NCBI RefSeq assembly: GCF_003003215.1
Contig: NZ_PVUF01000006.1
Location: 164,068-228,067, forward strand
DNA length: 64,000 nucleotides
DNA from: Tritonibacter scottomollicae
Lineage (GTDB): Bacteria; Pseudomonadota; Alphaproteobacteria; Rhodobacterales; Rhodobacteraceae
Direction of reading: 5' to 3'
Shown here piece after piece: positions 3,144 through 19,403 of this stretch. Made by a program: the position numbers and the translations under genes. The number at the start of each line of letters is the position of its first letter. Position 1 is the stretch's first letter. Below the pieces are notes generated by a model. That model worked only from the letters and a program-made list of their open reading frames with translations, was not told where the DNA came from and searched no databases.

Positions 3144-3182
3144 GCCCGGTCTCCTTGATCGTCATTTTTGCTACGCCCCGCC

Positions 3183-4582: not shown

Positions 4583-5643
4583 TACACCGATACCTTTCTG
4601 ATCCACTGGTCCACTGCGACGGCAGCGATGATGAGCACACCGATGAGCAGATAGGTCCATTGCGCGTCCGCCCCCAGCAGCCGCAACCCGAGGGTGAAGA
4701 CCCCGACGATCAACGCGCCAAAGAAGGTGCCCAGCACCGAGCCGCGTCCTCCAAAGAGCGAAATGCCCCCGATCACCACCGCGGTGATGCTCTCGATATT
4801 GGCGAGCTGGCCGGAAGTGGGCGAGACCGAGCCGATGCGCCCGATCAGGGCCCAGCCGGCAAAGGCGCAGATCAGGCCCGACAGCATGTAGACTGAAATC
4901 AGCACCTTGTCGGTGTTGACGCCCGACAGCTCCGCCGCCTCCTTGTCATCGCCCACCGCATAGACGTGTCGCCCCCAAGCGGTGTGGCGCAGCACATAGG
5001 CGAGGATCAGCACCAAGAGCACCATGAACAGCACGCCATAGGTGAAGACCGCACCGCCGATTTTGAACTTCTCGCCAAAGAACTGCAGGAAAGGTGCCTC
5101 GGCGGATATTTCCTGGCTGCGGATGGTTTCATTGGCGGAATAGAGGAAATTGCCCGCCAGCACGATTTGCCACATGCCGAGGGTCACGATGAAGGGCGGC
5201 AGCTTCATCCGTGCGACCAGCCAGCCATTCACAAAACCGCAGGCGGCGCCGCACATCAGCCCGCACGCCACCCCGAGCGCCGGCGGCAGCCCGTAGCGGA
5301 AGGTGAACTGACCCATGACCACCGAACTCAGCACCATGATCGCGCCCACCGACAGGTCGATGCCCGCGGTCAGGATCACCAGCGATTGCGCGCTGGCCAC
5401 GATACCAACGATGGCCACCTGCTGGAGGATCAGGGTCAGCGCGAAGGGAGAGAAGAATTTCGACCCCAGCAGCGCACCAAAGGTCACGATGGACAGGATC
5501 AGCACGATCAGCGGCACCAGCGAGGGCGTCACATGCAGCGCGTGTTGGAGCCTCTGGATAAAACTCTGATGGCCCTGATCGAACTCTGCCACCTGATCCG
5601 GGCTTCCGGTGACAGCGGCTTCATAGCTCTGCGGGGTAGACAT
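4582..5643 (-). CDS. frcC: Sugar ABC transporter permease (FrcC-like)
   Basis: A 353-residue inner-membrane permease of the ribose/fructose (RbsC/FrcC) family with about nine or ten hydrophobic segments. A soluble N-terminal tail of ~40 residues precedes the first helix (LIVLILSIVTFGALLG). AGIDLSVGAI and AVGDDKEAAELSGV are characteristic RbsC-type blocks. The start at 5643 has a strong GGAGGA site; six further in-frame codons lie upstream. It is separated from frcB by 143 bases that carry two hairpins and is coupled to frcA by a one-base overlap. Confidence 0.9.
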   Translation of the reverse strand: MSTPQSYEAAVTGSPDQVAEFDQGHQSFIQRLQHALHVTPSLVPLIVLILSIVTFGALLGSKFFSPFALTLILQQVAIVGIVASAQSLVILTAGIDLSVGAIMVLSSVVMGQFTFRYGLPPALGVACGLMCGAACGFVNGWLVARMKLPPFIVTLGMWQIVLAGNFLYSANETIRSQEISAEAPFLQFFGEKFKIGGAVFTYGVLFMVLLVLILAYVLRHTAWGRHVYAVGDDKEAAELSGVNTDKVLISVYMLSGLICAFAGWALIGRIGSVSPTSGQLANIESITAVVIGGISLFGGRGSVLGTFFGALIVGVFTLGLRLLGADAQWTYLLIGVLIIAAVAVDQWIRKVSV

Positions 5644-5705
5644 GATGCTCCTCCAAATCACCCGATGTCAGCGGGGTTGGTGTATTTTCTCTTGTGGTCC
5701 GAGAG

Positions 5706-5777
5706 ACCAATGGGGCGGGCACGCATGTCCACCCCATTGGTATTGTGTGTGGAGAGAGGGGGCGAATACGCCCCCTC
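5706..5777 (-). other. Two intercistronic stem-loops between frcB and frcC
   Basis: Just after the frcB stop the transcript can form a nine-pair hairpin (5756-5777, stem GAGGGGGCG, loop of four), then a second with perfect ten-base arms (ACCAATGGGG at 5706-5715 with CCCCATTGGT at 5732-5741). No long U-run follows. Such structures commonly protect the binding-protein message or partly terminate, giving more binding protein than membrane components. Confidence 0.65.
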
Positions 5778-5786
5778 CGTGTCAGC

Positions 5787-6803
5787 TCAACCCCAGCAGA
5801 GGTTGGTGCCCTCTTCGGTGTCGATGCTGTCAACGCCATCCACGGGTTTGTCGGTCACCAGTGCAACGCCAGTATCAAAGAAATCCTTGCCCGGTGTCGG
5901 TTCCGGCTTCACGCCTTCGTCGGCCCATTTCTTGATGGCCTCAACACCGAGGGACGCCATCATCAACGGGTACTGCTGCGACGTCGCGCCGATCACGCCG
6001 TCCTTGACGTTCTGCACGCCGGGGCAGCCACCATCGACAGAGACGATCAGAACGTCATTCTCACGTCCGATGGATTTCAGTGCCTCATAGGCACCGGCGG
6101 CAGCGGGTTCGTTGATGGTATAGACCACATTGATCATCGGATCCTTGGCGAGCAGGTTCTCCATCGCCCTGCGACCGCCCTCTTCATTCCCGGCTGTCAC
6201 GTCATTGCCGATGATGCGCGCGTCGTCCTCATCGCCCCATTTGTTGGGATCACCAAGGTCGATGCCAAAGCCCTGAAGGAACCCCTGATCGCGCAGCACG
6301 CCAACGGTGGGCTGGCTGACCGCCAGATCGAGCATGCCGATTTTGGCGTCGGCTGCGTCCTCACCCAGTGCAGCGGCAGCCCATTGGCCGATCAACTCAC
6401 CGGCGAGGAAGTTGTCAGTCGCAAAGGTCGCATCCGCCGCGTCGATCGGGCTGAGCGGCGTGTCCAGCGCAATCACCACAAGGCCCGCGTCGCGCGCCTG
6501 CTGCACTGCGGGCACGATGGACGAGGTGTCGGACGCGGTGAGCAGGATGCCCTTGGCCCCATCCGCGATGCAGGTCTCGATCGCCGCAACTTGCGTTTCA
6601 TGATCGCCGTCGATCTTGCCGGCAAAGGACTTGAGCTCCATGCCAAGCTCTTCGGCCTTGGCGGTGGCGCCTTCCTTCATCTTCACGAAGAAGGGGTTGG
6701 TGTCGGTTTTGGTGATCAGGCAGGCAGTCACCTTGTCATCGGCCTGTGCGGCACCTGCAATCAGGCCCACACCAGCGATGGTGGTCAGCAGAAGTTTCTT
6801 CAT
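5787..6803 (-). CDS. frcB: Sugar ABC transporter periplasmic binding protein (FrcB-like)
   Basis: A 338-residue periplasmic binding protein with a 21-residue signal peptide ([21 protein letters not shown]). Type I sugar-binding-protein blocks follow: [38 protein letters not shown] and [16 protein letters not shown]. It is close in length and order to FrcB of Sinorhizobium, which binds fructose, mannose and ribose. The start has a strong GGAGGAG site. It is the first gene of a minus-strand operon (frcB-frcC-frcA-frcK-isomerase) and is divergent from the ROK regulator across 186 bases. Substrate specificity is inferred from the family and from the adjacent isomerase. Confidence 0.9.
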
Positions 6804-6909
6804 GGTCTCCTCCCAGAAACGCGTATTTCATGTCGCTTCGCCCCACCCTGTTCTCCCTTGGCGGGTGCGTCGCCTGCCCGCATGAAAGCCGCGATTCCTC
6901 GCCACTGTC

Positions 6910-6934
6910 AATAAATAATTCAACTTGATTTATT
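6910..6934. promoter_or_regulatory. AT-rich inverted repeat in the frcB-frcR gap, candidate ROK operator
   Basis: AATAAAT (6910-6916) and ATTTATT (6928-6934) form an inverted repeat with an 11-base spacer in the divergent promoter region. Known ROK regulators of the NagC/Mlc group bind AT-rich inverted repeats of similar size. Assignment to the adjacent regulator is inference. Confidence 0.5.
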
Positions 6935-6989
6935 AACTATCCAGCGGCACGCTCTTGCCTCATGTGGAGGAGGAGCGCATAGACCGCAC

Positions 6990-8186
6990 ATGCCAGAGAC
7001 ACGTCCCTATACCAGCGGCGCAAATCAAAGCGAGGTGCGCGCGCATAATGAACGGTTGATGCTGTCGGTCCTGCATCAGGACGGCGCCATGCCGGGCAGC
7101 GAGATGGCACGGCGCACCGGCCTGTCGTCGCAAACGGTGTCGGTCATTCTGCGCAAACTGGAGCAAGATGGGCTGATCCTGCGTGGCGAGAGCCAGAAGG
7201 GACGCGTCGGGAAACCCTCGGTGCCCATGGGCATCAACCCCGAGGGGCTGTTTTCCTATGGCATCAAGATCGGGCGGCGCAGCACCGACTTGATGCTGAT
7301 CGATTTCAGCGGAGGCATTCGCGCCGAGCGCCGCCTGCGGTATCGATACCCGCAACCTGACGAGGTGTTCGGCTTTATCGAAACCAGCCTGCGCGACATC
7401 GGGTCCGACCTGACCGCAGATCAGCGCGACCGCATCTGCGGTATCGGCGTCGCGACCCCCTTTGACCTGTGGCGCTGGCACGCACAGGCCGGCGCACCAA
7501 AGACCAGTCTTCAGGCCTGGAAAGAACTGTGCCCGGTGACCGAAATCGCCCGGTTCAGCCCCCTGCGATGCTTTGTCATCAACGATGCGACCGCCGCCTG
7601 TCGCGCGGAGCACATGTTCGGTGCCAGCCGCGCCTGGCGGGACAGCATCTACTTCTTCATCGCATCATTTGCCGGCGGCGGCGTGGTGCTGAACAATTCT
7701 GTCTATGAGGGCAGCATGGGCAACGCAGGGGCGCTCGGCCCGCTGCCCACGCGCCGTCCCGATGGAAGCGACGGACGCCTGCTCGACACCGCGTCGATCC
7801 GCGAGCTGGAACGGAGACTGGTGGAGGTCAATATCGATCCGATCGTGCTGTGGACGCAACCGCAGGACTGGAGCCGTCTGGAAGAGCATGTGGCGCAATG
7901 GCTGGAAGACACCGCTGTTGCGCTGGCGCGCGCGGCTCTTGCAACCTGTGCCGTCATCGATTTTCAGGCTGTGGTGATAGATGGCGCCATGCCCCCGTCC
8001 CTGCGCGCGCGTCTCGTGGATCGGGTACGCGCCGAGCTGCCAACGCTGGACGCACGCGGTTTGATCCGACCCGTTGTGGCAGAGGGTGAGATTGGCGCCC
8101 ATGCCTCTGCCCTTGGAGCCGCTGCCAAACCCCTGATCGCGCAATATCTGATGGACACGCACGCCGGGTTTGCTCCGGCGTCCTGA
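6990..8186 (+). CDS. frcR: ROK-family transcriptional regulator (FrcR-like)
   Basis: A 398-residue ROK repressor. An N-terminal winged helix-turn-helix (about residues 20-75, with LSSQTVSVILRKLEQDGLI) is followed by a ROK domain with FINDATAACRAEHMFG and a glycine-rich IASFAGGGVVLNN. The kinase-type ROK zinc motif is not clearly complete, as in many regulators. It is divergent from frcB, as in the frc locus of Sinorhizobium, so it most likely controls sugar uptake and may also repress itself. The inducer is probably the transported sugar or its phosphate. Confidence 0.85.
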   Translation: MPETRPYTSGANQSEVRAHNERLMLSVLHQDGAMPGSEMARRTGLSSQTVSVILRKLEQDGLILRGESQKGRVGKPSVPMGINPEGLFSYGIKIGRRSTDLMLIDFSGGIRAERRLRYRYPQPDEVFGFIETSLRDIGSDLTADQRDRICGIGVATPFDLWRWHAQAGAPKTSLQAWKELCPVTEIARFSPLRCFVINDATAACRAEHMFGASRAWRDSIYFFIASFAGGGVVLNNSVYEGSMGNAGALGPLPTRRPDGSDGRLLDTASIRELERRLVEVNIDPIVLWTQPQDWSRLEEHVAQWLEDTAVALARAALATCAVIDFQAVVIDGAMPPSLRARLVDRVRAELPTLDARGLIRPVVAEGEIGAHASALGAAAKPLIAQYLMDTHAGFAPAS

Positions 8187-8296: not shown

Positions 8297-9133
8297 ATGT
8301 TGGAAATTGAAACGCTATTGCCCCTGGCGGGCGTTGCCGCTGCTGCAGGGGTTGCCGGGGGCATTCTTGCCGGCCTGCTGGGTGTGGGGGGCGGTATTGT
8401 CATCGTGCCCGCACTCTATTTCGTACTGGCCCTGACCGGCATGGATCCGGCGCTGACCATGCAGGTTGCCGTTGGCACGTCACTGGCCACCATCGTCTTT
8501 ACTGCGCTGTCGTCGGGCTATGGGCACTATAAGAAAGGCGCTATCGACATGGCGCTGCTGAAGCTCTGGGCGCCGTCGATCCTGGCGGGTGTCGTCATCG
8601 GCGGGGTTTTGGGCGGGCTGGTCTCCGGCAATGTACTCATCGTGGTCTTTGCCACCGTTGCCATGGCTGTTGCCCTCGACATGATTTTGCGCAAACCCAA
8701 GGAAACCCAAGAACCGAGATCATTCTCCACACCCGTCTGGGCTGGTCTGGGCGTGTTCGCCGGTGCGGTCTCGGCGATGATGGGGATCGGCGGTGGCTCC
8801 GTCTGCGTGCCGACGCTCAGCTTTCTTGGCTATGACATCCGCAAGGCGGTCGGCACATCAGCCGCAATCGGGTTCATCATCGGCCTGCCGGGCGCCCTGA
8901 TCTACATGGCGACGGGGTTCGGTGCCGAAGGTCTGCCACCGATGTCGCTGGGCTATGTGAACCTGCTGCTGGCGGCGATCATCATCCCGCTGTCCACCAC
9001 ATTTGCGCGCGTGGGCGTGAAACTCGCCCATTCGATCCCGCGCCGGGCGCTGAAGCTGTCGTTCGGACTGTTCCTGATGGCGACCTCGCTGCGCATGGTT
9101 GCGGATCTGGCCGAGCAGGCCGGATGGCTCTGA
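8297..9133 (+). CDS. tauE: TauE/SafE family sulfite/organosulfonate exporter
   Basis: A 278-residue membrane protein of the TauE/SafE (DUF81) family with about eight hydrophobic helices in two halves. Each half carries the repeated motif: GLLGVGGGIVIVP at the start and AMMGIGGGSVCVP in the middle. Members export sulfite or sulfoacetate during sulfonate breakdown. The ATG at 8297 was chosen because the membrane domain begins there; the open frame continues 23 codons upstream across the palindrome. It overlaps the next regulator gene by ten bases. Beside an SQ monooxygenase-type operon, sulfite export is the likely role. Confidence 0.85.
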   Translation: MLEIETLLPLAGVAAAAGVAGGILAGLLGVGGGIVIVPALYFVLALTGMDPALTMQVAVGTSLATIVFTALSSGYGHYKKGAIDMALLKLWAPSILAGVVIGGVLGGLVSGNVLIVVFATVAMAVALDMILRKPKETQEPRSFSTPVWAGLGVFAGAVSAMMGIGGGSVCVPTLSFLGYDIRKAVGTSAAIGFIIGLPGALIYMATGFGAEGLPPMSLGYVNLLLAAIIIPLSTTFARVGVKLAHSIPRRALKLSFGLFLMATSLRMVADLAEQAGWL

Positions 9134-9801
9134 AGCCACCTGCCCCCGGCGCCGAGGCCCTGCGTCAGGCGATCCTGAGCGGGGAGCTGGCGGAAAACGG
9201 GCGCCTGCTGCCCGAACGTGCGTTGGCACAGCGACTGTCCGTATCCCGCGCGCAATTGCGCGGGATATTGGATGATCTGGCCAGCGACGGTCTGGTCTTT
9301 CGCCGCCATGGGCAGGGCACCTTTTTGCAGCCGCCACCCGTGCAGGGCGCGGAGCGGCTCGGCGCGCTGGCCCAGCGTGTCTCTCCCCACGATTTGATGG
9401 AGGTTCGCCTTGATCTGGAACCCGCACTGGCCGCGCATGCGGCAGAGCGCGGCCGCGCAGAGGACAAGGCACGCCTGGCGCAGCTGACCAAAGCCACACG
9501 GTCTGCGGCCGACGCCGCCAACTATGAACGGGCCGATGATCTGTTTCACTACAAGATCGCGCAAATGGCCGGGAACGCGGTTTTTTTGACGCTGTTTGAG
9601 GAAATTCGCAGCCTGCGGCAGGCAGCAGATTGGACGCGCCTGCGGCAAGACGTTCTCGGCGTGGACGAAATCTCGCGGATTTCCGACGCGCACACGACCA
9701 TCTGTGACGCGATCTGCGCCGGCCAGTCAGAAGCGGCGCGTCTTGCGATGCGCGCGCATCTGGAGCAGGTCTGGCAGACGTTGGAGCGCGCGGAGGGCTG
9801 A
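9124..9801 (+). CDS. GntR-family transcriptional regulator, FadR subfamily
   Basis: A 225-residue regulator with an N-terminal winged helix (about residues 10-70, LPERALAQRLSVSRAQLRGIL, then the wing FRRHGQGTFLQ). The C-terminal all-helical FCD ligand domain has the metal-type residues of the FadR group (EVRLDLEP, DDLFHYKIA, DAHTTICDAI). It is translationally coupled to tauE by a ten-base overlap and probably controls the tauE promoter through the palindrome at 8240-8260. The ligand is unknown; an organic acid or sugar acid is typical for the subfamily. Confidence 0.85.
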   Translation: MALKPPAPGAEALRQAILSGELAENGRLLPERALAQRLSVSRAQLRGILDDLASDGLVFRRHGQGTFLQPPPVQGAERLGALAQRVSPHDLMEVRLDLEPALAAHAAERGRAEDKARLAQLTKATRSAADAANYERADDLFHYKIAQMAGNAVFLTLFEEIRSLRQAADWTRLRQDVLGVDEISRISDAHTTICDAICAGQSEAARLAMRAHLEQVWQTLERAEG

Positions 9802-9835
9802 AAAGCGTACGAGCCCCGGTGGCGGCTCCGTCCTG

Positions 9836-10630
9836 TCAGCCGCCAAGGTCCTTGAGAACCGCCAGCAGGTTGTCGACGTCTCCCTGTTCCAGATAGCGCT
9901 GCACCTCGATCACAATCCGGAGCTGCTTGGCCAGATAGGCAAGCTGACGGTGGTTGTTCTCGATGTGGCGGGCCGAGATTTCCGCGTCGATGGCCTCGGC
10001 CTCCTTGAGCAGTTTCTGCACCTCGGCGAGGGTCTTTTCATTGGCGATATCCTGTTTCTTCAGATGCGCCTTGATCGCCGACAGCCCCTCCAGCGCGATG
10101 GCACGGGCCTCGTCACGCACGGTGGTTTCCTGCTCCGGGTCGGCGATCGCGTCAAGCACCCTGCCCAGCGCCGCATCCAGTTTTGCAACCAGCCCGCTGC
10201 GCTCGCCTCCGGCAATGGGCAGCAGGTCGTTCACCGGCAGCGACAGAGGCAGGTTCTGGCCCTTGGCCTTTGCCAGCAGTCCCCGGCGTGCGGCGACAAA
10301 GGTCTTGATCACGAAGCGCGACGCTTCGGCCGCGCGTGGTGAGCGCATCAGCGTCGCGGCCATCACCGCGCCATGCTCTGTATACATGAGCGGCGGCGTG
10401 CGCAGGCCACCATGGCCTTTTGATATTCCAAGTTGGAATTTCAAGTCGGCGAATTCTTCTGCATCGAGGCGAAAGGCAAAATCCTCGCCAAAACGATCGG
10501 TGTTGTTGCTCACCAGTTTGTTGAGGTTGCCGGTGGTGTAATCGAACAATGCGGCCAAATCGGCGTCGCGGATCACCGGTTGGCCGCGAAAGGTAAAAAT
10601 CTGCGGTGTGGTCAATGTCTGATCCGTCAT
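9836..10630 (-). CDS. ORF6N domain-containing protein
   Basis: A 264-residue protein. Residues ~10-100 form an ORF6N domain (FRGQPVIRDADLAALFDYTTGNLNKLVSNN, then FQLG and YTEHGAVMAATLMRS), a DNA-binding-associated module first seen in phage antirepressors and also found in chromosomal genes. The rest is helical and charged and may form coiled coil. The ATG at 10630 was preferred over an upstream open frame that would run into the dctP gene. No other phage gene is near. It sits between the tauE-gntR pair (convergent) and the end of the SQ-type operon. Its role is unknown. Confidence 0.75.
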   Translation of the reverse strand: MTDQTLTTPQIFTFRGQPVIRDADLAALFDYTTGNLNKLVSNNTDRFGEDFAFRLDAEEFADLKFQLGISKGHGGLRTPPLMYTEHGAVMAATLMRSPRAAEASRFVIKTFVAARRGLLAKAKGQNLPLSLPVNDLLPIAGGERSGLVAKLDAALGRVLDAIADPEQETTVRDEARAIALEGLSAIKAHLKKQDIANEKTLAEVQKLLKEAEAIDAEISARHIENNHRQLAYLAKQLRIVIEVQRYLEQGDVDNLLAVLKDLGG

Positions 10631-10761
10631 GCGGGCGCGCGGGGCTCCTGTCGGTGAAACGTCAATGACCCCAAGGTTGATCTTCCGGACCGGAAGATCA
10701 AGCCGAGACTGACCGCCGTCCGACACACGCCCGGCACCGCCGCACATCTGAAAACCAGAAC

Positions 10762-10782
10762 GGGCGGACCAATGGCCCGCCC
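10762..10782 (-). terminator. Hairpin after the dctP stop
   Basis: GGGCGG (10762-10767) pairs with CCGCCC (10777-10782), with two further inner pairs. On the minus strand it lies 26 bases after the dctP stop, and a T-rich stretch follows only after several bases, so it is a weak terminator. Confidence 0.5.
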
Positions 10783-10808
10783 ATCCCTGCGATTTCGCAA
10801 TCTTCGGA

Positions 10809-11870
10809 TTATTGCAGATCTTTGGCGCGGGCCGCGTCGATCTCTTCTTCTGCAACCGCGACGGCATCGGTCAGCGCGGCAAAGGCCTCCTCGCCCTTGG
10901 TCACATTGGCCTTGAACCAGTCGTAGACCGGCGAAGCAGCCTCTTTGAAGGCGGCTTTCTGCTCAGGTGACGGAACATACAGATCCCCGCCGCCCGCGAC
11001 GAATTCCTCGTAGGCTGCGATCGACTTGCGCTTGGGCGAGGCAAAAGTGGCCTGCTGCAGCGCGTAGAAGCCATCGACAACCACCCGGCGCATATCTTCG
11101 GGCATCGCCAGGAAGGACTCGTTCGACATCCACCACAGGGCGCCCATATAGGCGTGACCGTCCAGGGTGATGTACTGCAGCCCCGCATCCGGGAATTTCA
11201 TGCCCATGATGTCGGTGATGCCGTTCTTGGAGCCTTCGACCACGCCGGTCTGAAAGGAGGTGAACAGCTCCGGCCATGGGATCGGGGTCGGCGAAGCGCC
11301 CAGCGCCTTCACCAGTTCCTGCGGCAGGTCCGCGACCACGGTACGGATCTTCAGGCCGTCCATATCAGACGGCTCTGCCACACGGCGCTTGGTGTTGGCA
11401 AAGTTGCGCCAGCCGCCGGTGTTGCCGATGGTCATCAGGCGGATGGTATCGCCGGAATCCTCCAGCGCCATATCGCGGATTGTGCGGGTGAAATCACCCG
11501 ACAGCACATGCTCCGCCACCCGGTCGTTGGCCATCAGATAGGGCAAATCCAGCACCTGCACGTAAGGGAACAGGCCCGCCGCGCCGCCGGAGGTGGAGAT
11601 ATAGACGTCGATGGAGCCATCAGCCACGCCCTGCAGGCATTCCGCGCCGTTCGAACACAGCTGGGTGCCGATGAACAATTCCACCTCGATGGCGCCGTTG
11701 GAGGCCGCCTCGACATAGTTCTTGAACACCACGAGACCGTCATAGTCCTCGTCGTTCTCGTTGGAATTGGCGGTGGCGCGGATGGTGTAATCCGCGGCCA
11801 ATGCGGATGTCGCCGCACTCCCTGCCATAAGGGCCGCAACGGCGACCGTCTTGAGGGCTTTCTTGAGCAT
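10809..11870 (-). CDS. dctP: TRAP transporter substrate-binding protein (DctP), candidate SQ/sulfonate binder
   Basis: A 353-residue periplasmic DctP protein. The signal peptide is ~25 residues (ending SAATSALA). The conserved ligand-contact arginine of DctP proteins is probably in DGLKIRTV, followed by ALGASPTPIPWPELFTSFQTGVVEG. A GGAGG site precedes the start. It is the last gene of the minus-strand run that begins with the monooxygenase, 36 bases after dctM. TRAP proteins bind carboxylates, sulfonates and some sugars or sugar acids. In this operon SQ or a sulfoquinovosyl glycoside is the suggested ligand, by context only. Confidence 0.85.
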   Translation of the reverse strand: MLKKALKTVAVAALMAGSAATSALAADYTIRATANSNENDEDYDGLVVFKNYVEAASNGAIEVELFIGTQLCSNGAECLQGVADGSIDVYISTSGGAAGLFPYVQVLDLPYLMANDRVAEHVLSGDFTRTIRDMALEDSGDTIRLMTIGNTGGWRNFANTKRRVAEPSDMDGLKIRTVVADLPQELVKALGASPTPIPWPELFTSFQTGVVEGSKNGITDIMGMKFPDAGLQYITLDGHAYMGALWWMSNESFLAMPEDMRRVVVDGFYALQQATFASPKRKSIAAYEEFVAGGGDLYVPSPEQKAAFKEAASPVYDWFKANVTKGEEAFAALTDAVAVAEEEIDAARAKDLQ

Positions 11871-11906
11871 TTAGTGTCCTCCCTGATGCTCTTCTCTTTT
11901 ATGCAG

Positions 11907-13196
11907 TCAATTCACAAACCCGGTCAGACGCGGGATCGTCATGGAAATGGCCGGAACGAAGGTGATCAGGAAGATCACCGCGATCTCTACGGCCAGAAAC
12001 GGCAGGATGGCGCGCGCAATGGTGGTGACCCGCTCGCCGGAAACGGCCGAGGCTACAAACAGCACCAGCCCCATCGGCGGTGTCGCCAGCCCCACGGTGA
12101 GGTTCACGCACATGATGATGGCGAAATGCACGGAATCGACGCCAAGGCTTGCAAACACCGGGCCAAGGATCGGACCGAGAATGATGATCGCCGGTCCCGC
12201 ATCGAGGAACATCCCCACCACAAACAGCAACAGGTTGATCAGGAACAGCAGCAGCAGCGGGTTTTCCGTCAGCGTCAGGATGAACTCAGCCAGCTGCTCC
12301 GGGGCATGGCTCAGCGACACCACCGTCTTGAACGACATCGCCGCGCCCACCAGCAACAGCACTACAGACGAGGTAATGCCGGCCCGGGTGAAGACATCTG
12401 ACAGCTCGCCCAGTTTAAGCGTCCGCAGCACAAACAGACCGATCACCAGCGCATAGGCGACGGCAACGGCGGCGGCCTCGGTCGGGGTGAAGACCCCTGC
12501 AAGGATGCCACCGAGGATGATCACAGGGGTCAGCAGCGGGAAGAACGCCTTGAGGCTCGCCTGTCCCCGCTCGCCCCAGGAATAGCGGCGCGAGGCGACG
12601 GGGAAGTCGTATTTATCGGCCATGACCTTGACCATGACCATCAGGCCAACCCCGACGAGGATGCCCGGCACCAGCCCGGCCAGGAACAGCGCCGCGACGC
12701 TCTCGCCCATCACATAGGCGTAGATGATCATGATGCCCGACGGCGGAATGATCGGCCCGATGACAGAGCTGGCGGCGGTGATCGCGGCGGCGAACTTGCG
12801 GCTGTAGCCCTGTTTCTCCATCGCCGGGATCAGCATGGAGCCGAGCGCCGAGGTATCCGCCACCGCCGAGCCGGACAGACCGGCAAACAGCATCGACGAC
12901 AGCACGTTTACATGTGCAAGCCCCCCGCGCAGATGCCCCATCAGCGCCTGAGAGAATTCAACCAGCCGTAGCGTGATGCCGCCCCGGTTCATCAATTCGC
13001 CCGCCAGCATGAAGAAGGGGATCGCCATCAGCGGGAAACTGTCCATGCCGTTATAAAGGTTGCGGTACAAAAGCGTGATGTCGCGCTCCTGCCCGTTCAG
13101 CCACAGCATCAGGCCCGGCGCGGCCAGAAGGCCAAAAAACACCGGCAGGCCGACCATCAGGAACAGCAGGAAAAGCGGCAAGAACCAGATCAGCAT
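11907..13196 (-). CDS. dctM: TRAP transporter large permease (DctM)
   Basis: A 429-residue membrane protein of the DctM family with about twelve hydrophobic segments, including the IPFFMLAGELMNRGGI, SAVADTSALGSMLIPAM and PPSGIMIIYAYVMG blocks typical of the ion-coupled subunit. The coding strand reads GTGATG at the junction with dctQ. ATG at 13196 was chosen because AAAGGAG is better spaced for it than for GTG at 13199. The overlap with the dctQ stop implies coupling. It uses a sodium or proton gradient to move the substrate delivered by DctP. Confidence 0.88.
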   Translation of the reverse strand: MLIWFLPLFLLFLMVGLPVFFGLLAAPGLMLWLNGQERDITLLYRNLYNGMDSFPLMAIPFFMLAGELMNRGGITLRLVEFSQALMGHLRGGLAHVNVLSSMLFAGLSGSAVADTSALGSMLIPAMEKQGYSRKFAAAITAASSVIGPIIPPSGIMIIYAYVMGESVAALFLAGLVPGILVGVGLMVMVKVMADKYDFPVASRRYSWGERGQASLKAFFPLLTPVIILGGILAGVFTPTEAAAVAVAYALVIGLFVLRTLKLGELSDVFTRAGITSSVVLLLVGAAMSFKTVVSLSHAPEQLAEFILTLTENPLLLLFLINLLLFVVGMFLDAGPAIIILGPILGPVFASLGVDSVHFAIIMCVNLTVGLATPPMGLVLFVASAVSGERVTTIARAILPFLAVEIAVIFLITFVPAISMTIPRLTGFVN

Positions 13197-13786
13197 CACT
13201 CGGCTCCTTTGGCAGTGGCGAATTCAATTTCAGGCAGGCGGTCCGCCCCGCCGAGAAGCGCAACAAGGCGGTGCAGGATCAGCTCCACATTGACGAGGAT
13301 CAGCAACGCCAGCCCCACCAGAAGCGAGAGCATCATCCAGCTGCGCGGCAAGCGGAACCAGCTGTCAAAGGCGATGGAGGTGGGCAGGTAGAGAGAGGCT
13401 GTGGCGAAACGACCACCGATGCCGGTGACCTCCTTGTAGCCGATCTGGATGGCCACGATCATCACCAACAGGCTGAGCCCCAGAAGGATGAGCGACAGGA
13501 GCGAACCGACCCGCTGCGGCAACATCGCAGAGACCGTATCGATGGCGACAAACCCACCCTGGCGAAACGCCGTCGGCGCCATCAAGCCGGTCATCCAGAG
13601 CATGCAGAACCGCGCCGCCTCGTCAGGCCAGGGCAGCGCGTTGTTCAGAACGTAGCGACAAAAGACTTGGATCAGGATTGCCACGACCATGGTCGCCACA
13701 GCGGCACATCCCAGCCAGCGCCCGATGCGCAAGAGGGTTGAGTTGATCCAGTACAGCGATGTCACCACCGCCATCAATGCGTTCAT
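13196..13786 (-). CDS. dctQ: TRAP transporter small permease (DctQ)
   Basis: A 196-residue protein with four hydrophobic segments and the DctQ motifs VFCRYVLNNALPWPDEAARF and MTGLMAPTAFRQGGFVAIDT. The start at 13786 carries a strong GGGAGGAG site; the longer open frame upstream reads into the flavin reductase gap. It lies 61 bases after the flavin reductase gene and overlaps dctM. It pairs with DctM in the inner membrane. Confidence 0.88.
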   Translation of the reverse strand: MNALMAVVTSLYWINSTLLRIGRWLGCAAVATMVVAILIQVFCRYVLNNALPWPDEAARFCMLWMTGLMAPTAFRQGGFVAIDTVSAMLPQRVGSLLSLILLGLSLLVMIVAIQIGYKEVTGIGGRFATASLYLPTSIAFDSWFRLPRSWMMLSLLVGLALLILVNVELILHRLVALLGGADRLPEIEFATAKGAE

Positions 13787-13847
13787 GTTGCTCCTCCCAG
13801 AACCCGAACTTCGAAGCGCCCTCCCAGACACCCCGACAGCGCACCTG

Positions 13848-14369
13848 TCAGTGCCCGGTGACGCGGCCCATTTGCCCTTTGAAGAAGGCAAGCGCCTCGC
13901 CTTCCTCACGCATCTCCGCCCGGTTCACGACGCCCAGCACGATGGCATGGTCTCCCCCGTCATAAACCGCATGGCGGCTACATTCGAAACGCGCCAGACA
14001 GCCCTCAAGCACCGGCACGCCCTCCGCATTCAGCGCCAGATCGAGATCACGCAGCCCAGCCGCATCCTTTGCCACGCTGTAGCAAAGGTCCTGCTGATCC
14101 GCGGCAAGGACATGGATCGCGTAGTGCTCTGCGGCCTCGAAATAGGGAAAGCGCCGCGAGTTGCGGTCCGGCGACCACAGAACCATCGGCGGGGTCAGTG
14201 ACACCGAGGAAAAACTGCTGGCGGTGATCGCCACCACACCTTCGGGCGTCTGCGCCGTCACGATGGTCACGCCAGTTGCAAAGCGGCCAAAGGCATCGCG
14301 CAGCAGTCGGGTGTTGCTCTCGTCCGGCACAAAGGCCTGTTGTGTCTTGTTGCTCATGTGCAGGCCCAT
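13848..14369 (-). CDS. smoA: NAD(P)H:flavin oxidoreductase (SmoA-like)
   Basis: A 173-residue flavin reductase of the HpaC/flavin-reductase-like split-barrel family, with the core FGRFATGVTIVTA, GVVAITASSFSSVSLTPPMVLWS and the His/Tyr-rich CSRHAVYDGGDHAIVLGVV. It would reduce FMN with NAD(P)H and hand FMNH2 to the monooxygenase two genes upstream. AGGAGGT precedes the ATG at 14369, one base after the stop of the aldo/keto reductase gene, so the pair is translationally coupled. The pairing with an SsuD-like monooxygenase and an aldo/keto reductase is the smoABC gene set of the SQ monooxygenase pathway. Confidence 0.82.
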   Translation of the reverse strand: MGLHMSNKTQQAFVPDESNTRLLRDAFGRFATGVTIVTAQTPEGVVAITASSFSSVSLTPPMVLWSPDRNSRRFPYFEAAEHYAIHVLAADQQDLCYSVAKDAAGLRDLDLALNAEGVPVLEGCLARFECSRHAVYDGGDHAIVLGVVNRAEMREEGEALAFFKGQMGRVTGH

Positions 14370-14370
14370 G

Positions 14371-15261
14371 TTACGCGACCTCCTGGCCCAAGGCGGCCTC
14401 GTAGAGACGGAACCAGCTCTGGCGGTCCAGCTCCACCTTCAGCGCGTCCGAAATGTTTTGGATGCGTGACAGGTTGTTGGTGCCCAGCACCGGCAGGATC
14501 ATCGCCGGGTGACGCAACAGGAAGGCCACAGCCACGGCGGCGCGGTCGACACCCTGCGCGGTCGCGATCTCATCCAGACGCGAGGCCAGCTCCCCCTGAC
14601 CGGTCATCAGGCTGCCGCCGCCAAGCGGCGACCACGCCATGATTGGCTGAGCGTTCATCTGGTGGAACGCCAGATCGCCATTGGTGAAGGGCGCAGGCTC
14701 AGAAAGCGAAATCTCGATCTGGTTGGTCACCAGGGGGCTGGTCATCGCCGATTGCAGCAGGTTCCAGTCCCAGGGACGGAAATTCGACACACCTACGGCT
14801 TTCACCTTGCCCGATTTGACCAGGTCATCAAGCGTCGCACCGGTTTCGTGATGATCCATCAGCGGGTCCGGACGGTGGATCAGCAACAGGTCGATCTGCT
14901 CGATGTTCATTTCGCGCAAGGAGCGCTCTACCGCAGTCTCGATGTAGGCGCGCGACGTGTCATAGTATTTGACCGGCTTATCGCTGTGGATGCCGATGGG
15001 CGCAACGATATCGCATTTCGTCACGATCTCCATCTGCGCCCGCAACGCAGGATTCGACTTGAGCGCTGCGCCAAGGATCGCTTCGGCGCCGTAATCGCCA
15101 TAGATGTCAGCCTGATCGAAGGTGGTGATCCCCTGTTCCAGGCAGGCGTGGATCTTGGCTTCGACATGTTTGACGGATGTATCGGCATCATCACCGATCC
15201 GCCACATGCCGTAGATCAGGCGGGAAAGTTCAAGGTCGTCAGCTAGCTTAACGCGATCCAT
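14371..15261 (-). CDS. smoB: Aldo/keto reductase, candidate 6-dehydroglucose reductase (SmoB-like)
   Basis: A 296-residue aldo/keto reductase with the complete catalytic tetrad Asp49, Tyr54 (FDQADIYG), Lys82 (VTKCDI) and His129 (LLLIHRPDP). The fold ends in the cofactor segment LPVLGTNNLSRI. In the SQ monooxygenase pathway SmoB reduces 6-dehydro-D-glucose to glucose with NAD(P)H. The ATG at 15261 overlaps the monooxygenase stop by one base (TGATG), which rules out the longer open frame upstream. Taken alone it would be called only a YdhF-type oxidoreductase; the SmoB assignment rests on its two neighbours. Confidence 0.75.
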   Translation of the reverse strand: MDRVKLADDLELSRLIYGMWRIGDDADTSVKHVEAKIHACLEQGITTFDQADIYGDYGAEAILGAALKSNPALRAQMEIVTKCDIVAPIGIHSDKPVKYYDTSRAYIETAVERSLREMNIEQIDLLLIHRPDPLMDHHETGATLDDLVKSGKVKAVGVSNFRPWDWNLLQSAMTSPLVTNQIEISLSEPAPFTNGDLAFHQMNAQPIMAWSPLGGGSLMTGQGELASRLDEIATAQGVDRAAVAVAFLLRHPAMILPVLGTNNLSRIQNISDALKVELDRQSWFRLYEAALGQEVA

Positions 15262-16415
15262 CAGCGGCGCACTCCTACACCAAGCGGTGTTTTTGGGGGG
15301 CTCGCCGGCACCCGGCCATAGGCCTCGGGCAGCGAGCAGGTTTTCATGTTGGGGAGGATGCGCGCACCGAAGTGTTCGGCTTCCTCGATATGGGGGTAGC
15401 CCGACAGGATGAAGGCGCGGATGCCCATCTTCTGATAGGCCTCCAGCTTGCTCATCACCTGGTCGGTGGAGCCAACCAATGCCGCGCCGCAGCCCGAACG
15501 GGCACGGCCAACGCCAGTCCAAAGATGCGGCTCGATAAAGCCGTCATCATCCGCGATCTCGCGGTTCTTGGCCTGATGGCTCACGCCGAGCGATTTGGCA
15601 TCCAGCGCCCGCTCCCGAATGGCGGTGCCTTGCCCGTCGTCGAGTTGCGACACGATATAGTCGGCATATTCGCGCGCTTCTGCTTCGGTATCGCGCACGA
15701 TGGTGTGCACGCGCAGACCGTAGTCCAGCGTGCGATCGTATTGTTCTGCCACCGCGTGGACGGCCTGCATGCGGCCCTGAAGCTCTTCCATCTTTTCCGG
15801 CCACATCAGGTAGACATCGCAATGCTGCCCGCACAGCTCCAGTGCCGAGGGGCTATAGCCGCCAAAATACAGCAACGGACCGCCGGTCTGGTACGGCCTT
15901 ACCGGATCCGTGGTGAGCCCGGAGAAGTTATAGACCTCACCTTCGTAGTTGATCTCGTCCCGGGTCCACGCCTGTTTCAGGATCTCCACCACCTCTCGCG
16001 AGCGTTGATAGCGATACGCGCTCTCGGCCTTCTCGCCCGGAAAATCGGAAGAGATGATATTCACCGTGAGGCGGCCCTCCAGCATGTGATCGAGCGTCGC
16101 CAGGGTGCGGGCCAGCATGATGGGCTGCATCTCACCACAGCGCACCGCCGCCAGCATGTTGATCTTCGAGGTGATCGGAGCACACCCAGCGACGAACGAC
16201 AGCGTGTCCTGCCCCACCTGATAGGAGGAGGGACACAGGATGTTGCGGAAGCCCTGCGCTTCGGCGGTTTTCACAATCTCGGAACAATGGGCCCAGGATG
16301 ACCGAAGGTCGCCATCCGGCACGCCAAGGAACTGGTAGTCATCCGAACACAGGGCAGAAAACCACGAGACTTCGGCAGCGTCCAGATCGGGCGATGTGAT
16401 GGGAACGACGGTCAT
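15261..16415 (-). CDS. smoC: FMNH2-dependent LLM-class monooxygenase, candidate sulfoquinovose monooxygenase (SmoC-like)
   Basis: A 384-residue member of the SsuD/LLM family of two-component flavin monooxygenases, which cleave C-S bonds with FMNH2 and O2 to release sulfite and an aldehyde. Family blocks include TAEAQGFRNILCPSSYQVGQD, GRLTVNIISSDFPGEKAES, YFGGYSPSALELCGQHCDVYLMW and FILSGYPHIEEAEHFG. The start at 16415 (CAGGAG site) fits the family; the frame is open far upstream but without a ribosome site. It is the first gene of the operon and is divergent from the GntR/UTRA gene. SQ rather than an alkanesulfonate is suggested by the SmoB-like gene, glucokinase and Gfo/Idh/MocA protein nearby. 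Confidence 0.75.
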   Translation of the reverse strand: MTVVPITSPDLDAAEVSWFSALCSDDYQFLGVPDGDLRSSWAHCSEIVKTAEAQGFRNILCPSSYQVGQDTLSFVAGCAPITSKINMLAAVRCGEMQPIMLARTLATLDHMLEGRLTVNIISSDFPGEKAESAYRYQRSREVVEILKQAWTRDEINYEGEVYNFSGLTTDPVRPYQTGGPLLYFGGYSPSALELCGQHCDVYLMWPEKMEELQGRMQAVHAVAEQYDRTLDYGLRVHTIVRDTEAEAREYADYIVSQLDDGQGTAIRERALDAKSLGVSHQAKNREIADDDGFIEPHLWTGVGRARSGCGAALVGSTDQVMSKLEAYQKMGIRAFILSGYPHIEEAEHFGARILPNMKTCSLPEAYGRVPASPPKTPLGVGVRR

Positions 16416-16469
16416 TTGGCTCTCCTGGAACAGTCGAATTTCCTCTTGCGTAGCAGCGGATTTAAAGTA

Positions 16470-16487
16470 CATCAATGGTGCATCAAT
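16470..16487. promoter_or_regulatory. Direct repeat in the smoC-gntR divergent promoter
   Basis: CATCAAT occurs at 16470-16476 and 16481-16487, 11 bases apart (about one helical turn), within the 99-base gap between the divergent starts. It is a candidate site for the GntR/UTRA regulator that controls both directions. There is no experimental or comparative support here. Confidence 0.35.
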
Positions 16488-16514
16488 TATTTCCACCCGT
16501 CCACACTCTTGCGC

Positions 16515-17249
16515 ATGGGACCCCGCATGACCCCGCTGAACGACCTTGACCGAGACACCCCAACCGCCCTGCCGATCTACATGCAGATCAGCGAATTCCT
16601 GATCCGCGAGATCGCCGCCGGGCGTCTGGTCGACGGGCAACGCCTGCCGCCAGAACGGGAGATGGCAAAGAGCCATGGGACCACCGTGCGCACCCTGCGC
16701 AAGTCATTGTACGAGCTGGAGAAAAAAGGGCTTCTGGAACGTGTGCAGGGTTCCGGAAACTACATCCACGCCAACCACAAGGCGCAGAGCGTTTATTCGA
16801 TGTTCCGGCTCGAATTGACCACGGGCGGCGGCCTGCCCACTGCCGATATTCTGGAGGTGGCTGCCGTCGAAAAACCGGCAGATCTGCCAGTGTTTGGCAC
16901 CGCAGATCACGGCACGCGGGTACGCCGCCTGCGATTTCTCAACCGCATTCCGATCGCGGTAGAGGAGATCTGGCTCGATGGGGACGCCGGCATCATCAAG
17001 CCCGAGCAGATGTCAGATTCGCTCTACCGCACGTATCAGATGCAACTGGGCCTGATCATCGCCCGCGCCGAGGACCGCGTGTCCATCGGCCATGTGCCCG
17101 ACTGGGCCCCGAACAGCTTTGCGCTCCGCCCCGGAACGCTCACCGGCTATATCGAACGCTTCAGCTGGGCCGAGGTTGCGGCCCCGGTGGAGTTTTCCAG
17201 AACCTGGTTCGACACGAACAAGGCGCTCTATGTACAGCGCCTGATCTGA
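16515..17249 (+). CDS. GntR-family regulator with UTRA domain
   Basis: A 244-residue HutC-subfamily regulator. An N-terminal winged helix (about residues 20-85, QISEFLIREIAAGRLVDGQRLPPERE, wing VQGSGNYI) precedes a UTRA ligand domain (RVRRLRFLNRIPIAVEEIWLDG, then TLTGYIERFSW). Sugar phosphates or related metabolites are common ligands of this type. ATG at 16515 was taken; a second ATG at 16527 is equally possible, since neither has a strong ribosome site. It is divergent from the monooxygenase operon and followed after 11 bases by the Gfo/Idh/MocA gene, so it most likely controls SQ catabolism in both directions. Confidence 0.82.
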   Translation: MGPRMTPLNDLDRDTPTALPIYMQISEFLIREIAAGRLVDGQRLPPEREMAKSHGTTVRTLRKSLYELEKKGLLERVQGSGNYIHANHKAQSVYSMFRLELTTGGGLPTADILEVAAVEKPADLPVFGTADHGTRVRRLRFLNRIPIAVEEIWLDGDAGIIKPEQMSDSLYRTYQMQLGLIIARAEDRVSIGHVPDWAPNSFALRPGTLTGYIERFSWAEVAAPVEFSRTWFDTNKALYVQRLI

Positions 17250-17260
17250 GGGAGACACTC

Positions 17261-18367
17261 TTGTCACAAATCATCAATTACGGCGTCATCGGTTGCGGCA
17301 TGATGGGGCAGGAACACCTGCGCAACATCGCACTGTTGGACGACACACGCGTCGCGGCGATCTTTGAGCCGGACGCCCAGATGGCCACGGAGAGCCGCAA
17401 GTTCGCACCCGACGCGCAGTTTGTCGACAGCGTGGACGCGCTGCTGGCGGTGGAGGCGCTGGACTGCATCCTGATCGCCAGCCCCAACTATCGCCACGTT
17501 GAACAGCTGGAGGCCCTGGCGGCCCATCGTCCGCTGCCGGTGCTGGTGGAAAAACCGCTCTTCACCGATCCCGCACATGCGGAGCGGCTGGCGGCGTTCC
17601 GCGCCAATTACCCCGCGCCGGTGTGGGTGGCGATGGAATATCGCTACATGCCGCCCGTGGCGACCCTGCTGGCCGAGGCCGAGGCGGCCACTGGCGGCAT
17701 CAAGATGCTGACCATCCGCGAGCACCGGTTTCCCTTCCTCGACAAGATCGGCGACTGGAACCGTTTCAACCGCTTCACCGGTGGGACGTTTGTGGAGAAA
17801 TGCTGCCACTTCTTCGACCTGATGCGGCTGACGCTGAAATCGGAGCCTGTTCGGGTGCTGGCCTCGGGGGGCGCGGATGTGAATCATCTGGCTGAACGCT
17901 ATGACGACGAGGCGCCGGATATCCTCGACAACGGCTATGTCATTGTTGATTTTGCCAATGGAACCCGCGCCATGCTGGAGCTGTGCATGTTCGCCGAAGG
18001 CGCCCGCTATCAGGAAGAAATCTCTGCCGTGGGTCCAAAGGGCAAGATCGAGGCGTTGGTGCCGGGGCCGGGCCGGTTCTGGCCGGACCACTTGGGCGAA
18101 CCACCGGTTCCGCAGGTTGTAGTCTCACCACGCGCCCCCAAGGGGCCGGAGATTCGCGACATCCCGGTCGATCCCACGCTGCTGGAAGCCGGCGATCACA
18201 ATGGATCGACCTTCTATCAGCACAAGGGTTTTCTAGACTTGGTGCGTGGCCTGCGCACGCACCCCGACGTGAGCTTGGAGGACGGTCGCATTGCGGTGCT
18301 GATGGGCATGGCGGCGCAGATCTCCATGACCGAGCATCGCGCCGTGGAGATTGCAGAGCTGCTGTGA
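17261..18367 (+). CDS. Gfo/Idh/MocA-family protein, candidate NAD-dependent sulfoquinovosidase
   Basis: A 368-residue protein with an N-terminal Rossmann fold (GVIGCGMMG, residues 8-16), EKP at 97-99 and the family's Lys180, His183 and Asp186 (VEKCCHFFDLM), so NAD(H) binding and catalysis look intact. It starts with TTG at 17261 behind GAGGGAGA, which overlaps the stop of the GntR gene. Most relatives are sugar dehydrogenases. However, an oxidoreductive NAD-dependent sulfoquinovosidase family (GH188, SqgA) has this fold, is found in SQ clusters lacking a GH31 SQase, and is reported from Roseobacter bacteria. No GH31 gene is visible here. The SQase role is inferred; a sugar dehydrogenase is the alternative. 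Confidence 0.72.
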   Translation: MSQIINYGVIGCGMMGQEHLRNIALLDDTRVAAIFEPDAQMATESRKFAPDAQFVDSVDALLAVEALDCILIASPNYRHVEQLEALAAHRPLPVLVEKPLFTDPAHAERLAAFRANYPAPVWVAMEYRYMPPVATLLAEAEAATGGIKMLTIREHRFPFLDKIGDWNRFNRFTGGTFVEKCCHFFDLMRLTLKSEPVRVLASGGADVNHLAERYDDEAPDILDNGYVIVDFANGTRAMLELCMFAEGARYQEEISAVGPKGKIEALVPGPGRFWPDHLGEPPVPQVVVSPRAPKGPEIRDIPVDPTLLEAGDHNGSTFYQHKGFLDLVRGLRTHPDVSLEDGRIAVLMGMAAQISMTEHRAVEIAELL

Positions 18368-18383
18368 CGTCACAGAATTTGCG

Positions 18384-18412
18384 AAAGGCCGCCCCCACGG
18401 AGGCGGCCTTTT
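18384..18412. terminator. Bidirectional terminator between the Gfo/Idh/MocA gene and glk
   Basis: AAAGGCCGCC (18384-18393) pairs with GGCGGCCTTT (18402-18411) across an eight-base loop and is flanked by A and T runs, so it can stop transcripts from both sides of this convergent pair. Confidence 0.88.
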
Positions 18413-18440
18413 AAACGCGTACCTACTCTTGTCTCTGCAG

Positions 18441-19403
18441 CTACCGCGCCGTCAGGTAGTTGCGAGCCCCGATCAGGCCGAAGTTGGGTTGATGGTAGAG
18501 GTGCAGCGGCAGCTCCTGTCGCCAGGACGTATGCCGCCCACCCGCGTTGAAGGCCGCAACAAAAGCCTCATCAAAAATCCACGGGTTGGCCGCCGCCACA
18601 CCCCCGCTGATGAAGACGCCGCCCTTGGCCGCAAAGACAAGGCCGAGATCGCCAGCAACACCCGCGAGATACTGCACGAACAGCTCAACCGCGCGTATCG
18701 CGGCAGTATCAAGCCTCGCTTTCGCGGCCTCGAAAATTTCAGCACCTGTCCCCAGTGGGGCGGTCAAATCCATGCTCTTGGCCACCGCGCGATAGAAATA
18801 TGGCAAACCGGTGCCCGAAAGAATGGCTTCGGCTTCGACCACCAACCCCGGCCCCATGCCGACCTCGGGCCATTCTTCGCGCAGCGCCTCAAAGATTGGC
18901 ACCTCCTCCGGGGTGCGCGGACCAAGCGCCACATGTCCGCCCTCGCCCGGAATCACGCAGGGTTCACCATTGGCCCAGACCAGCGCCCCCACCCCGAGGC
19001 CGGTCCCGGGACCAACAATCAGGCAGGGTTCGCGCGGAAACACCGCCTGCCCTTGAAGGACGGTCACATCCCCCTCTGCCACCGTGGCCAGAGACCAGGC
19101 GGCCGCCTCGAAATCATTCAGCACTTTTGCGCGTTCGATCCCAAGCGCCACGGCGATACCGCGTTCGGAAAAGCTCTGATCTGCATTGGTCAATTGCACG
19201 GAGCCGTCGCGCACGACACCCGCTGCCGCAATCACGGCCCGGCCCGGCGCACTACCGCGATGGGCTGCGAAATCCGCGCAGGCCTGCTCAAGGTTCAGCG
19301 TGCCCTTGGTGTCATAGCGGGCGCGTTCGAGAATATCGCCCTCGACGTTCACAGCTGCCAGTCGCATGTTGGTTCCGCCAACGTCGGCGATGAGATTCCA
19401 CAT
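18441..19403 (-). CDS. glk: Glucokinase (Glk family)
   Basis: A 320-residue non-ROK bacterial glucokinase. The ATP-site phosphate motif is IADVGGTNMRLA at the N-terminus. LNDFEAAA carries the catalytic Asp, and GPGTGLGVGALV, GEGGHVALG and FISGGVA complete the fold. It makes glucose 6-phosphate from ATP and glucose in the cytoplasm. The start at 19403 has GGAGGG. Its position, convergent with the candidate sulfoquinovosidase and next to an SQ monooxygenase operon whose end product is glucose, fits a dedicated role, but it may also be the general glucokinase. About 200 bases upstream hold its promoter and no further gene. Confidence 0.9.
   Translation of the reverse strand: MWNLIADVGGTNMRLAAVNVEGDILERARYDTKGTLNLEQACADFAAHRGSAPGRAVIAAAGVVRDGSVQLTNADQSFSERGIAVALGIERAKVLNDFEAAAWSLATVAEGDVTVLQGQAVFPREPCLIVGPGTGLGVGALVWANGEPCVIPGEGGHVALGPRTPEEVPIFEALREEWPEVGMGPGLVVEAEAILSGTGLPYFYRAVAKSMDLTAPLGTGAEIFEAAKARLDTAAIRAVELFVQYLAGVAGDLGLVFAAKGGVFISGGVAAANPWIFDEAFVAAFNAGGRHTSWRQELPLHLYHQPNFGLIGARNYLTAR

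Follow-up and report, generated by a model that had tools for sequence, protein, structure and literature searches.

Sulfoquinovose (SQ) is an abundant sulfonated sugar of plants and algae. Its annual production is of the order of 10 billion tons (PMC10755693). The closest described systems to the locus analyzed here are SmoABC of Agrobacterium tumefaciens and SquDF of Novosphingobium, in which SmoC, SmoB and a flavin reductase are encoded in one operon and convert SQ to sulfite and glucose (PMC9594981, PMC12890257). The Agrobacterium form uses an ATP-binding cassette (ABC) importer and a sulfoquinovosidase (SQase) of glycoside hydrolase family 31 (GH31). We analyzed a window of 64,000 nucleotides from Tritonibacter scottomollicae (contig NZ_PVUF01000006.1, positions 164,068 to 228,067; genome of 4.68 Mb in 72 contigs), where the same three enzyme genes form one operon with the same predicted outcome. 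In contrast to the Agrobacterium form, this locus carries genes for a tripartite ATP-independent periplasmic (TRAP) transporter and a GH188 enzyme. With high confidence, we read it as a Roseobacter-type SQ monooxygenase (sulfo-SMO, also called sulfo-ASMO) locus, predicted to combine dedicated TRAP import of SQ or sulfoquinovosyl glycerol (SQGro), GH188 cleavage and conversion by SmoABC to sulfite and glucose. SQ degradation with the same enzymes in Roseobacters, the same bacterial group, is reportedly the subject of Liu et al. (ISME J, 2023) and Ma et al. (Nat Commun, 2025).

The predicted SQ desulfurization locus

The features of the central unit are the following:

10809-11870, minus strand: TRAP solute-binding protein DctP, predicted SQ or glycerol-glycoside binder (PF03480, residues, clade neighbors)
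11907-13199, minus strand: TRAP large permease DctM (PF06808; TIGR00786 above cut-off)
13196-13786, minus strand: TRAP small permease DctQ (PF04290)
13848-14369, minus strand: smoA, predicted flavin reductase partner (PF01613; second possible start at 14357)
14371-15261, minus strand: smoB, predicted 6-dehydroglucose reductase of the aldo/keto reductase family (7bby/7bbz scores, tetrad)
15261-16415, minus strand: smoC, predicted FMNH2-dependent SQ monooxygenase (Bac_luciferase; 7olf/7oh2 scores)
16462-16487, minus strand: conserved operator-like box ATTGATRCACYATTGATNTACATCAA, with 2 mismatches in the window (conservation in smoC-gntR regions)
16527-17249, plus strand: GntR/UTRA regulator, predicted for the operon (PF00392 and PF07702; adjoins smoC in 88 of 88 loci)
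17261-18367, plus strand: sqgA, predicted GH188 NAD+-dependent SQase of the Gfo/Idh/MocA fold (8zn9 and 8qc2/8qc3 scores; contacts)

The original prediction had proposed an SQ desulfurization locus with a TRAP importer between 8297 and 19403. All the genes that it named were located where it had put them, with intact frames, and Pfam backs each of them. Its core reading is supported by the enzyme scores, the GH188 contacts and the TRAP linkage in other genomes presented below.

The SmoC protein scored 676 bits to 7olf and 674 bits to 7oh2 across 383 residues, two structures that we take to be crystallized SmoC and that their depositors named methanesulfonate sulfonatase and alkanesulfonate monooxygenase. 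The scores were only 180 bits to 1nqk/1m41, presumably SsuD, 107 bits to dimethylsulfone monooxygenase and 28 bits to RutA, and the protein therefore does not side with the alkanesulfonate or pyrimidine enzymes. Nevertheless, SsuD is its nearest NCBIfam model, and one could read the monooxygenase as an SsuD-type alkanesulfonate enzyme in a locus that scavenges sulfur from simple sulfonates. We consider this reading very improbable, as the match to the SsuD model (233 bits) lies far below the cut-off of 518 bits and below the SmoC scores, and as SqgA and SmoB each accompany SmoC in 85 of the 88 related loci described below. SmoB scored 402 bits to 7bby/7bbz, which we assume to be SmoB structures under depositor names that do not say so, and at most 196 bits to other reductases. 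A literature search for four of the SmoC and SmoB structure codes turned up no paper on them. The complete tetrad claimed for the aldo/keto reductase was recovered as D49, Y54, K82 and H129 and is kept in all 86 aligned rows, the window's included. SmoA was identified at the family level (PF01613). By sequence, the monooxygenase is assigned as SmoC and the aldo/keto reductase as SmoB; the flavin reductase is of the SmoA type, and these are the three families originally proposed. The nearest named SmoC relative is that of Tritonibacter horizontis, with 95% identity. In PMC13372026, sulfo-SMO is recognized by SmoB and SmoC encoded within 10 genes; here, smoB and smoC are adjacent.

The Gfo/Idh/MocA protein, SqgA, scored 552 bits to 8zn9, 364 bits to 8qc2 and 356 bits to 8qc3, 8QC2 being a GH188 structure (PMC11465081). 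The published GH188 residues K107, Y136, E189, H193 and H321, together with the sulfonate contacts R166, L170 and K172 (PMC10755693), are all identical in SqgA (K98, Y127, E179, H183, H313, R156, L160 and K162). These eight contacts are conserved in 86 of 86 rows, again with the window's, and we found no difference at the contacts from the enzymes of that source, which share the association with Roseobacter sulfo-SMO clusters. On this basis, the protein is assigned as a GH188 NAD+-dependent sulfoquinovosidase. The observation that it takes the place of the GH31 enzyme holds, and this replacement was already known and in print, as were sulfo-SMO clusters in Roseobacters: according to PMC10755693, nearly all of these clusters contain GH188. 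SqgA is the sole copy in the genome at E ≤ 1e-20. The genome's single GH31 was rejected as an SQase, with 257 bits to an alpha-glycosidase versus 104 bits to YihQ and a position in a glucuronate locus, leaving SqgA as the only SQase candidate found. This glucuronoside locus of the same genome (L130, G000:C24:1-19000) carries GH31, GH2, UxaC, UxuA, a mannitol-type dehydrogenase and its own TRAP transporter.

Taken together, this gene set very likely serves to take up SQ, release its sulfur as sulfite and burn the rest as glucose. In the proposed pathway, DctP would bind the sulfonated sugar for import through DctQM with sodium, as in other TRAP systems. SqgA would free SQ from its glycoside in the cytoplasm, SmoA would supply reduced flavin mononucleotide to SmoC, SmoC would yield sulfite and 6-dehydroglucose, and SmoB would reduce the latter to glucose, from which the neighboring glucokinase could make glucose 6-phosphate. 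The GntR/UTRA regulator would control both divergent transcripts through the box at 16462-16487.

Layout and importers of related loci

We compared the window with 88 loci chosen by SmoC, namely the 80 best of 561 genome matches and 8 of 25 plasmid records; L-numbers are labels of compared loci, and flank contents were judged within the retrieved stretches. Novosphingobium PP1Y (L111, no annotation) and the short loci L082-L102 were left out of this set. SmoC identity ranged from 75 to 95% in all 88 loci, and SmoB, SmoA and SqgA each recurred in 85 of them and GntR in 88. The block SqgA-GntR / SmoC-SmoB-SmoA-DctQ-DctM-DctP was found again in most of the 88 loci and is therefore more than a chance arrangement. 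The importer adjoining the smo genes was a TRAP transporter in 67 loci and an ABC transporter in 11, with 10 unassigned. The TRAP transporter seen in the place of the ABC importer is no oddity, since TRAP is the usual form among these loci. The combination of GH188 with TRAP is typical of Roseobacter sulfo-SMO loci, and the original prediction recognized the locus correctly.

Both kinds of importer genes follow smoA in a common slot. A quick SmoC tree requires at least 4 changes of the TRAP/ABC label, versus a mean of 10.5 with shuffled labels, and the strongly supported branches force just 1 change. Together with the common slot, these label changes indicate that importers have been exchanged in that slot.

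Three loci depart from the common picture. In L107, on plasmid pMaD9 of Marinovum algicola, the SMO locus has an ABC importer; its operon further includes an esterase gene and another Gfo/Idh/MocA gene, and smoC, gntR and sqgA all run in one direction. In L108, on a plasmid of Qingshengfaniella alkalisoli, smoC is immediately followed by the TRAP genes and the retrieved stretch holds no smoB, smoA or sqgA, as expected of either a reduced form or a decaying locus. L036, a full TRAP-type SMO block with a SmoC 86% identical, lies on a contig of a metagenome-assembled genome labeled Granulosicoccaceae (Gammaproteobacteria), by transfer or by wrong binning.

A TRAP binding-protein clade linked to SQ genes

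We then considered the importer through its binding protein. Among plasmid records, 10 of 10 DctP matches with at least 70% identity lay in records also carrying SmoC, and 3 weaker matches lay in records without it. One of these three, from Photobacterium sp. DA100 (46% identity), belongs to TRAP genes that adjoin a sulfolactaldehyde (SLA) reductase (NCBIfam PRK15461, 509 bits, cut-off 348). This locus also carries a YihS-family isomerase, a class II aldolase, an aldose epimerase and TauE, a predicted set that is like the sulfo-Embden-Meyerhof-Parnas pathways (sulfo-EMP/EMP2). Using the Photobacterium DctP as query at E ≤ 1e-60, we found at least 18 places in 17 of 398 Pseudomonadota genomes and, in 197 genomes of Photobacterium's family, at least 37 places in 30 genomes, 4 of them already found; these are lower bounds, with few candidates scored per genome. 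The surroundings of each listed place were retrieved, the window's own excepted. Markers were sought within about 9 kb, and the pathway names of these loci are assignments from family and context.

Without the duplicate L134, the 49 loci come to 48 distinct ones, and a specific SQ marker was present within this distance in 46 of these. No SQ marker turned up at any of the 13 control loci, which hold the other DctPs of this genome, nor at the more distant L133 and L135. The markers fell into six classes: SmoC with GH188 (21 loci); GH188 with a TauD-type dioxygenase (L160 and L223); GH188 with a LacD-type aldolase and an isomerase related to the SQ isomerase SftI (L159 and L162); SLA reductase (12 loci); YihQ-type GH31 with no reductase in reach (8 loci); and a TauD-type dioxygenase alone (L209). 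The dioxygenase of L160 scored 535 bits to 9yut, a chain whose name omits SQ. The GH31 of L157 reached 981 bits (cut-off 553), with 775-979 bits to YihQ-like chains. In hybrid sulfo-EMP/EMP2 clusters of Vibrio (PMC13372026), SQ undergoes sulfoglycolysis to dihydroxypropanesulfonate, in contrast to the desulfonation predicted here; in L154, L206 and other loci, relatives of the window's TRAP genes lie in clusters with comparable enzymes. For Vibrio mediterranei AbY-1905, PMC13372026 describes more than 20-fold induction by SQ of ten genes, AC0VPI_00105-00150, with the SQ isomerase at AC0VPI_00125. The isomerase is also the fifth of ten genes in L206, which run kinase, SLA reductase, epimerase, TauE, isomerase, aldolase, DctQ, DctM, DctP and GH31; if the two gene orders correspond, DctQ, DctM and DctP would be AC0VPI_00135 to AC0VPI_00145, and induction of this TRAP clade by SQ would already have been observed. 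The survey of PMC13372026, restricted to the genus Vibrio, found sulfo-SMO in a single genome. We observed twelve sulfo-SMO loci (L216-L222 and L224-L228) in one genus of Photobacterium's family (g456), with SmoC 69-72% identical.

The binding proteins share a set of residues. In 52 of 52 clade rows, which include L133 and L207, we found C72, C78, R144, R155, R176, N216, H239, Y241 and W246, with K215 in 51. C72 and C78 occur in none of the 13 DctP paralogs. R176 aligns with R147 of SiaP, a substrate-binding arginine, and is invariant in the 65 SMO rows as in the 52 clade rows.

Carboxylates and small sulfonates are the best-known TRAP substrates, and the DctP search also matched an isethionate-binding chain with 95 bits. 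It could thus be argued that the enzymes form a true SQ pathway and that the TRAP transporter carries another solute, such as a short-chain sulfonate or a sugar acid, adjoining them by operon inheritance. The 10 SMO loci without a nearby TRAP or ABC transporter fit this view, as does the Pacificitalea locus L133, a DctP relative with no SQ genes nearby. On the other hand, the DctP relatives accompany SQ genes across differing key enzymes, namely SmoC, TauD-type dioxygenases and sulfo-EMP-type sets, an argument limited by the reductase and often the SQase that SMO and predicted SQ dioxygenase (sulfo-SDO-type) loci still have in common. L162 comes from the same family as the window; its DctP shares 84% identity with that of the window and stands beside a sulfo-EMP-type set with GH188 in place of SMO and no SmoC in reach. 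On the DctP tree, this protein falls among the SMO rows (with branch supports of 80-94, none of them starred), and its placement, together with the common signature, points to more than operon inheritance. The same slot is also filled by ABC genes in other loci. Overall, we consider transport of another solute unlikely.

Therefore, the TRAP genes are probably a dedicated SQ carrier, and their prediction as an importer of SQ or SQGro is well supported. More broadly, and with fair though lesser confidence, we propose from these sequences a hitherto unassigned sulfosugar importer family of Alpha- and Gammaproteobacteria, with a DctP signature of two clade-specific cysteines (C72, C78) and basic residues (R144, R155, R176, K215). 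It would serve SmoC, TauD-type dioxygenase, sulfo-EMP-type and possibly sulfo-Entner-Doudoroff (sulfo-ED) pathways, carry SQGro as well as SQ, and make the importer, and not the enzyme set, the constant entry point by which marine SQ use can be recognized. Transport of SQGro is proposed because the following SQase, GH188 or YihQ-type GH31, appears cytoplasmic: by eye, SqgA begins at its NAD-binding motif with no signal peptide, and the start of the Vibrio GH31 lacks one too. Should both enzymes act inside the cell, the carrier would have to import the glycoside. If true, a TRAP clade that stays constant while the enzymes change would be a pathway-independent marker of SQ use in genomes and metagenomes. 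This SQ-linked clade is the most valuable addition to the original prediction.

Several points weigh against these assignments. What we observed is gene content, family membership and residue conservation, and each catalytic, transport and regulatory step is deduced from them. The set of 88 is biased to the near kin of the window, and its conservation counts describe near kin. Of its 10 loci without an assigned importer, 2 lie at contig ends, and 2 of the 11 ABC calls (L048 and L066) are based on partial matches. Several SQ markers were taken from six loci that were later counted, and 41 of 42 DctP loci carry a marker without these donors; the marker identity cut-offs were chosen when some of the loci were already known. 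The isomerase of Photobacterium is nearest to a D-mannose isomerase model (500 bits, cut-off 600). The isomerase of L162 reached 252 bits against a cut-off of 700 for SQ isomerase, and its aldolase resembles tagatose-bisphosphate aldolase, with 326 bits to 8tnf and 54 bits to the YihT aldolase. The sulfo-EMP label of L162 therefore depends on GH188, kinase, aldolase and isomerase jointly. Two DctP loci carry no specific marker: L158, which by Pfam has a sulfo-ED-like set (dehydratase, HpcH aldolase, short-chain dehydrogenase/reductase, aldehyde dehydrogenase and TauE) with a dehydratase that NCBIfam names L-arabinonate dehydratase, and L207, the third DctP copy of its genome. No SQ gene was found within 9 kb of the clade-like DctP of L133 (51% identical). 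A DctP model built from 20 close homologs was poor, with a mean predicted local distance difference test (pLDDT) score of 50.1. Finally, no SorA-type sulfite dehydrogenase (PF00174) was recognized in the genome, a second match at the cut-off aside.

With no SQ genes within reach, L133 was set aside as a further member by linkage, and the Paracoccus DctP (37%, L135) as a clade member. The DctPs of L133 and L207 may import SQ for enzymes encoded elsewhere. As a sulfite dehydrogenase, the main PF00174 protein was not retained; it precedes an MsrQ-like gene and resembles MsrP.

In L156, L208 and L211-L213, a DctP with no permease of its own within reach stands beside GH31, a dihydroxyacetone kinase (DhaK) and an iron-type alcohol dehydrogenase (Fe-ADH), and the last two enzymes would handle the freed glycerol. 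L201 and L202 hold two different DctPs per locus. All seven loci are from Photobacterium's family, and perhaps they have separate binding proteins for SQ and SQGro that share a permease.

Literature searches joining SQ with TRAP or importer gave no TRAP importer for SQ among the matches listed, and the available parts of PMC9594981, PMC12890257, PMC13372026 and PMC12421959 do not mention one; the words transporter and TRAP are absent from the main text of PMC13372026. We claim no priority for the assignment, as we suspect that the TRAP genes appear in an earlier figure or proteome table of Liu 2023, Sharma 2022 or Ma 2025.

Regulation and neighboring genes

The smoC-gntR box was present with at most 4 mismatches in 84 of 88 smoC-gntR regions and in 0 of 4400 shuffled regions. 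These 88 regions are the window and 87 loci, L107 being excluded as it has no divergent gntR. The first 21 bases of the box occur once in the genome at up to 3 mismatches, between smoC and gntR. Within the box is an inverted repeat, TTGAT-N4-ATCAA, of which the window has an imperfect copy, and another ATTGAT lies 11 bases upstream; with these features, it would fit a GntR/UTRA operator. Its conservation is partly due to the near relatedness of the loci, and Vibrionaceae SMO loci carry diverged forms. No promoter was detected between smoC and gntR in a consensus scan.

The unit is flanked by the following genes:

8297-9133, plus strand: TauE/SafE family exporter, candidate sulfite exporter (PF01925)
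9124-9801, plus strand: FCD-type GntR regulator, overlapping tauE (PF07729 and PF00392)
9836-10630, minus strand: ORF6N-domain gene, between dctP and the TauE pair (PF10543)
18441-19403, minus strand: glucokinase, neighbor gene (PF02685)

The original gene list overlooked the ORF6N-domain gene. It also placed glucokinase in the divergent block with the GntR/UTRA and Gfo/Idh/MocA genes; the latter two are divergent, and the glucokinase gene lies on the opposite strand, facing the Gfo/Idh/MocA gene. A candidate gene had further been claimed for every step from import to glucose 6-phosphate and sulfite export. Of these, TauE and glucokinase are linked to the unit solely by neighborhood in the closest relatives.

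A wider functional unit that includes TauE, the FCD regulator and glucokinase is possible and, in our view, somewhat doubtful. TauE and the FCD regulator adjoin the unit in L002, L003 and L004, and glucokinase does so in L002 and L004, all close relatives. Since the genome has a sole PF02685 glucokinase and no recognized SorA-type sulfite dehydrogenase, both functions would be needed. On the other side, TauE was not found in the flanks of 85 of the 88 loci, nor glucokinase in those of 86. A YeiH-type putative sulfate exporter is near the unit in 28 loci, and the genome encodes six proteins of the TauE/SafE family in all, this one included. The genome-wide search with the 21 bases did not place the box at tauE or glk, and a common regulon is thus unsupported, although these genes might have another box. 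Only the closest kin keep glucokinase and the TauE pair next to the unit. TauE, under its own regulator, may export sulfite, a role suggested solely by its neighborhood in close relatives. Weaker TauE relatives occur in L159, L168 and L169.

The ORF6N domain is known mainly from phages. The gene stands in the same place in L002 and L003, with 87% identity, and is therefore resident in the lineage. At 2478-8186, the window also carries a sugar ABC importer, a kinase-like gene, a D-lyxose isomerase and a ROK regulator; the ROK gene has kept its place next to the smo genes in L002-L004, as has the gene for the sugar-binding protein in L002 and L003.

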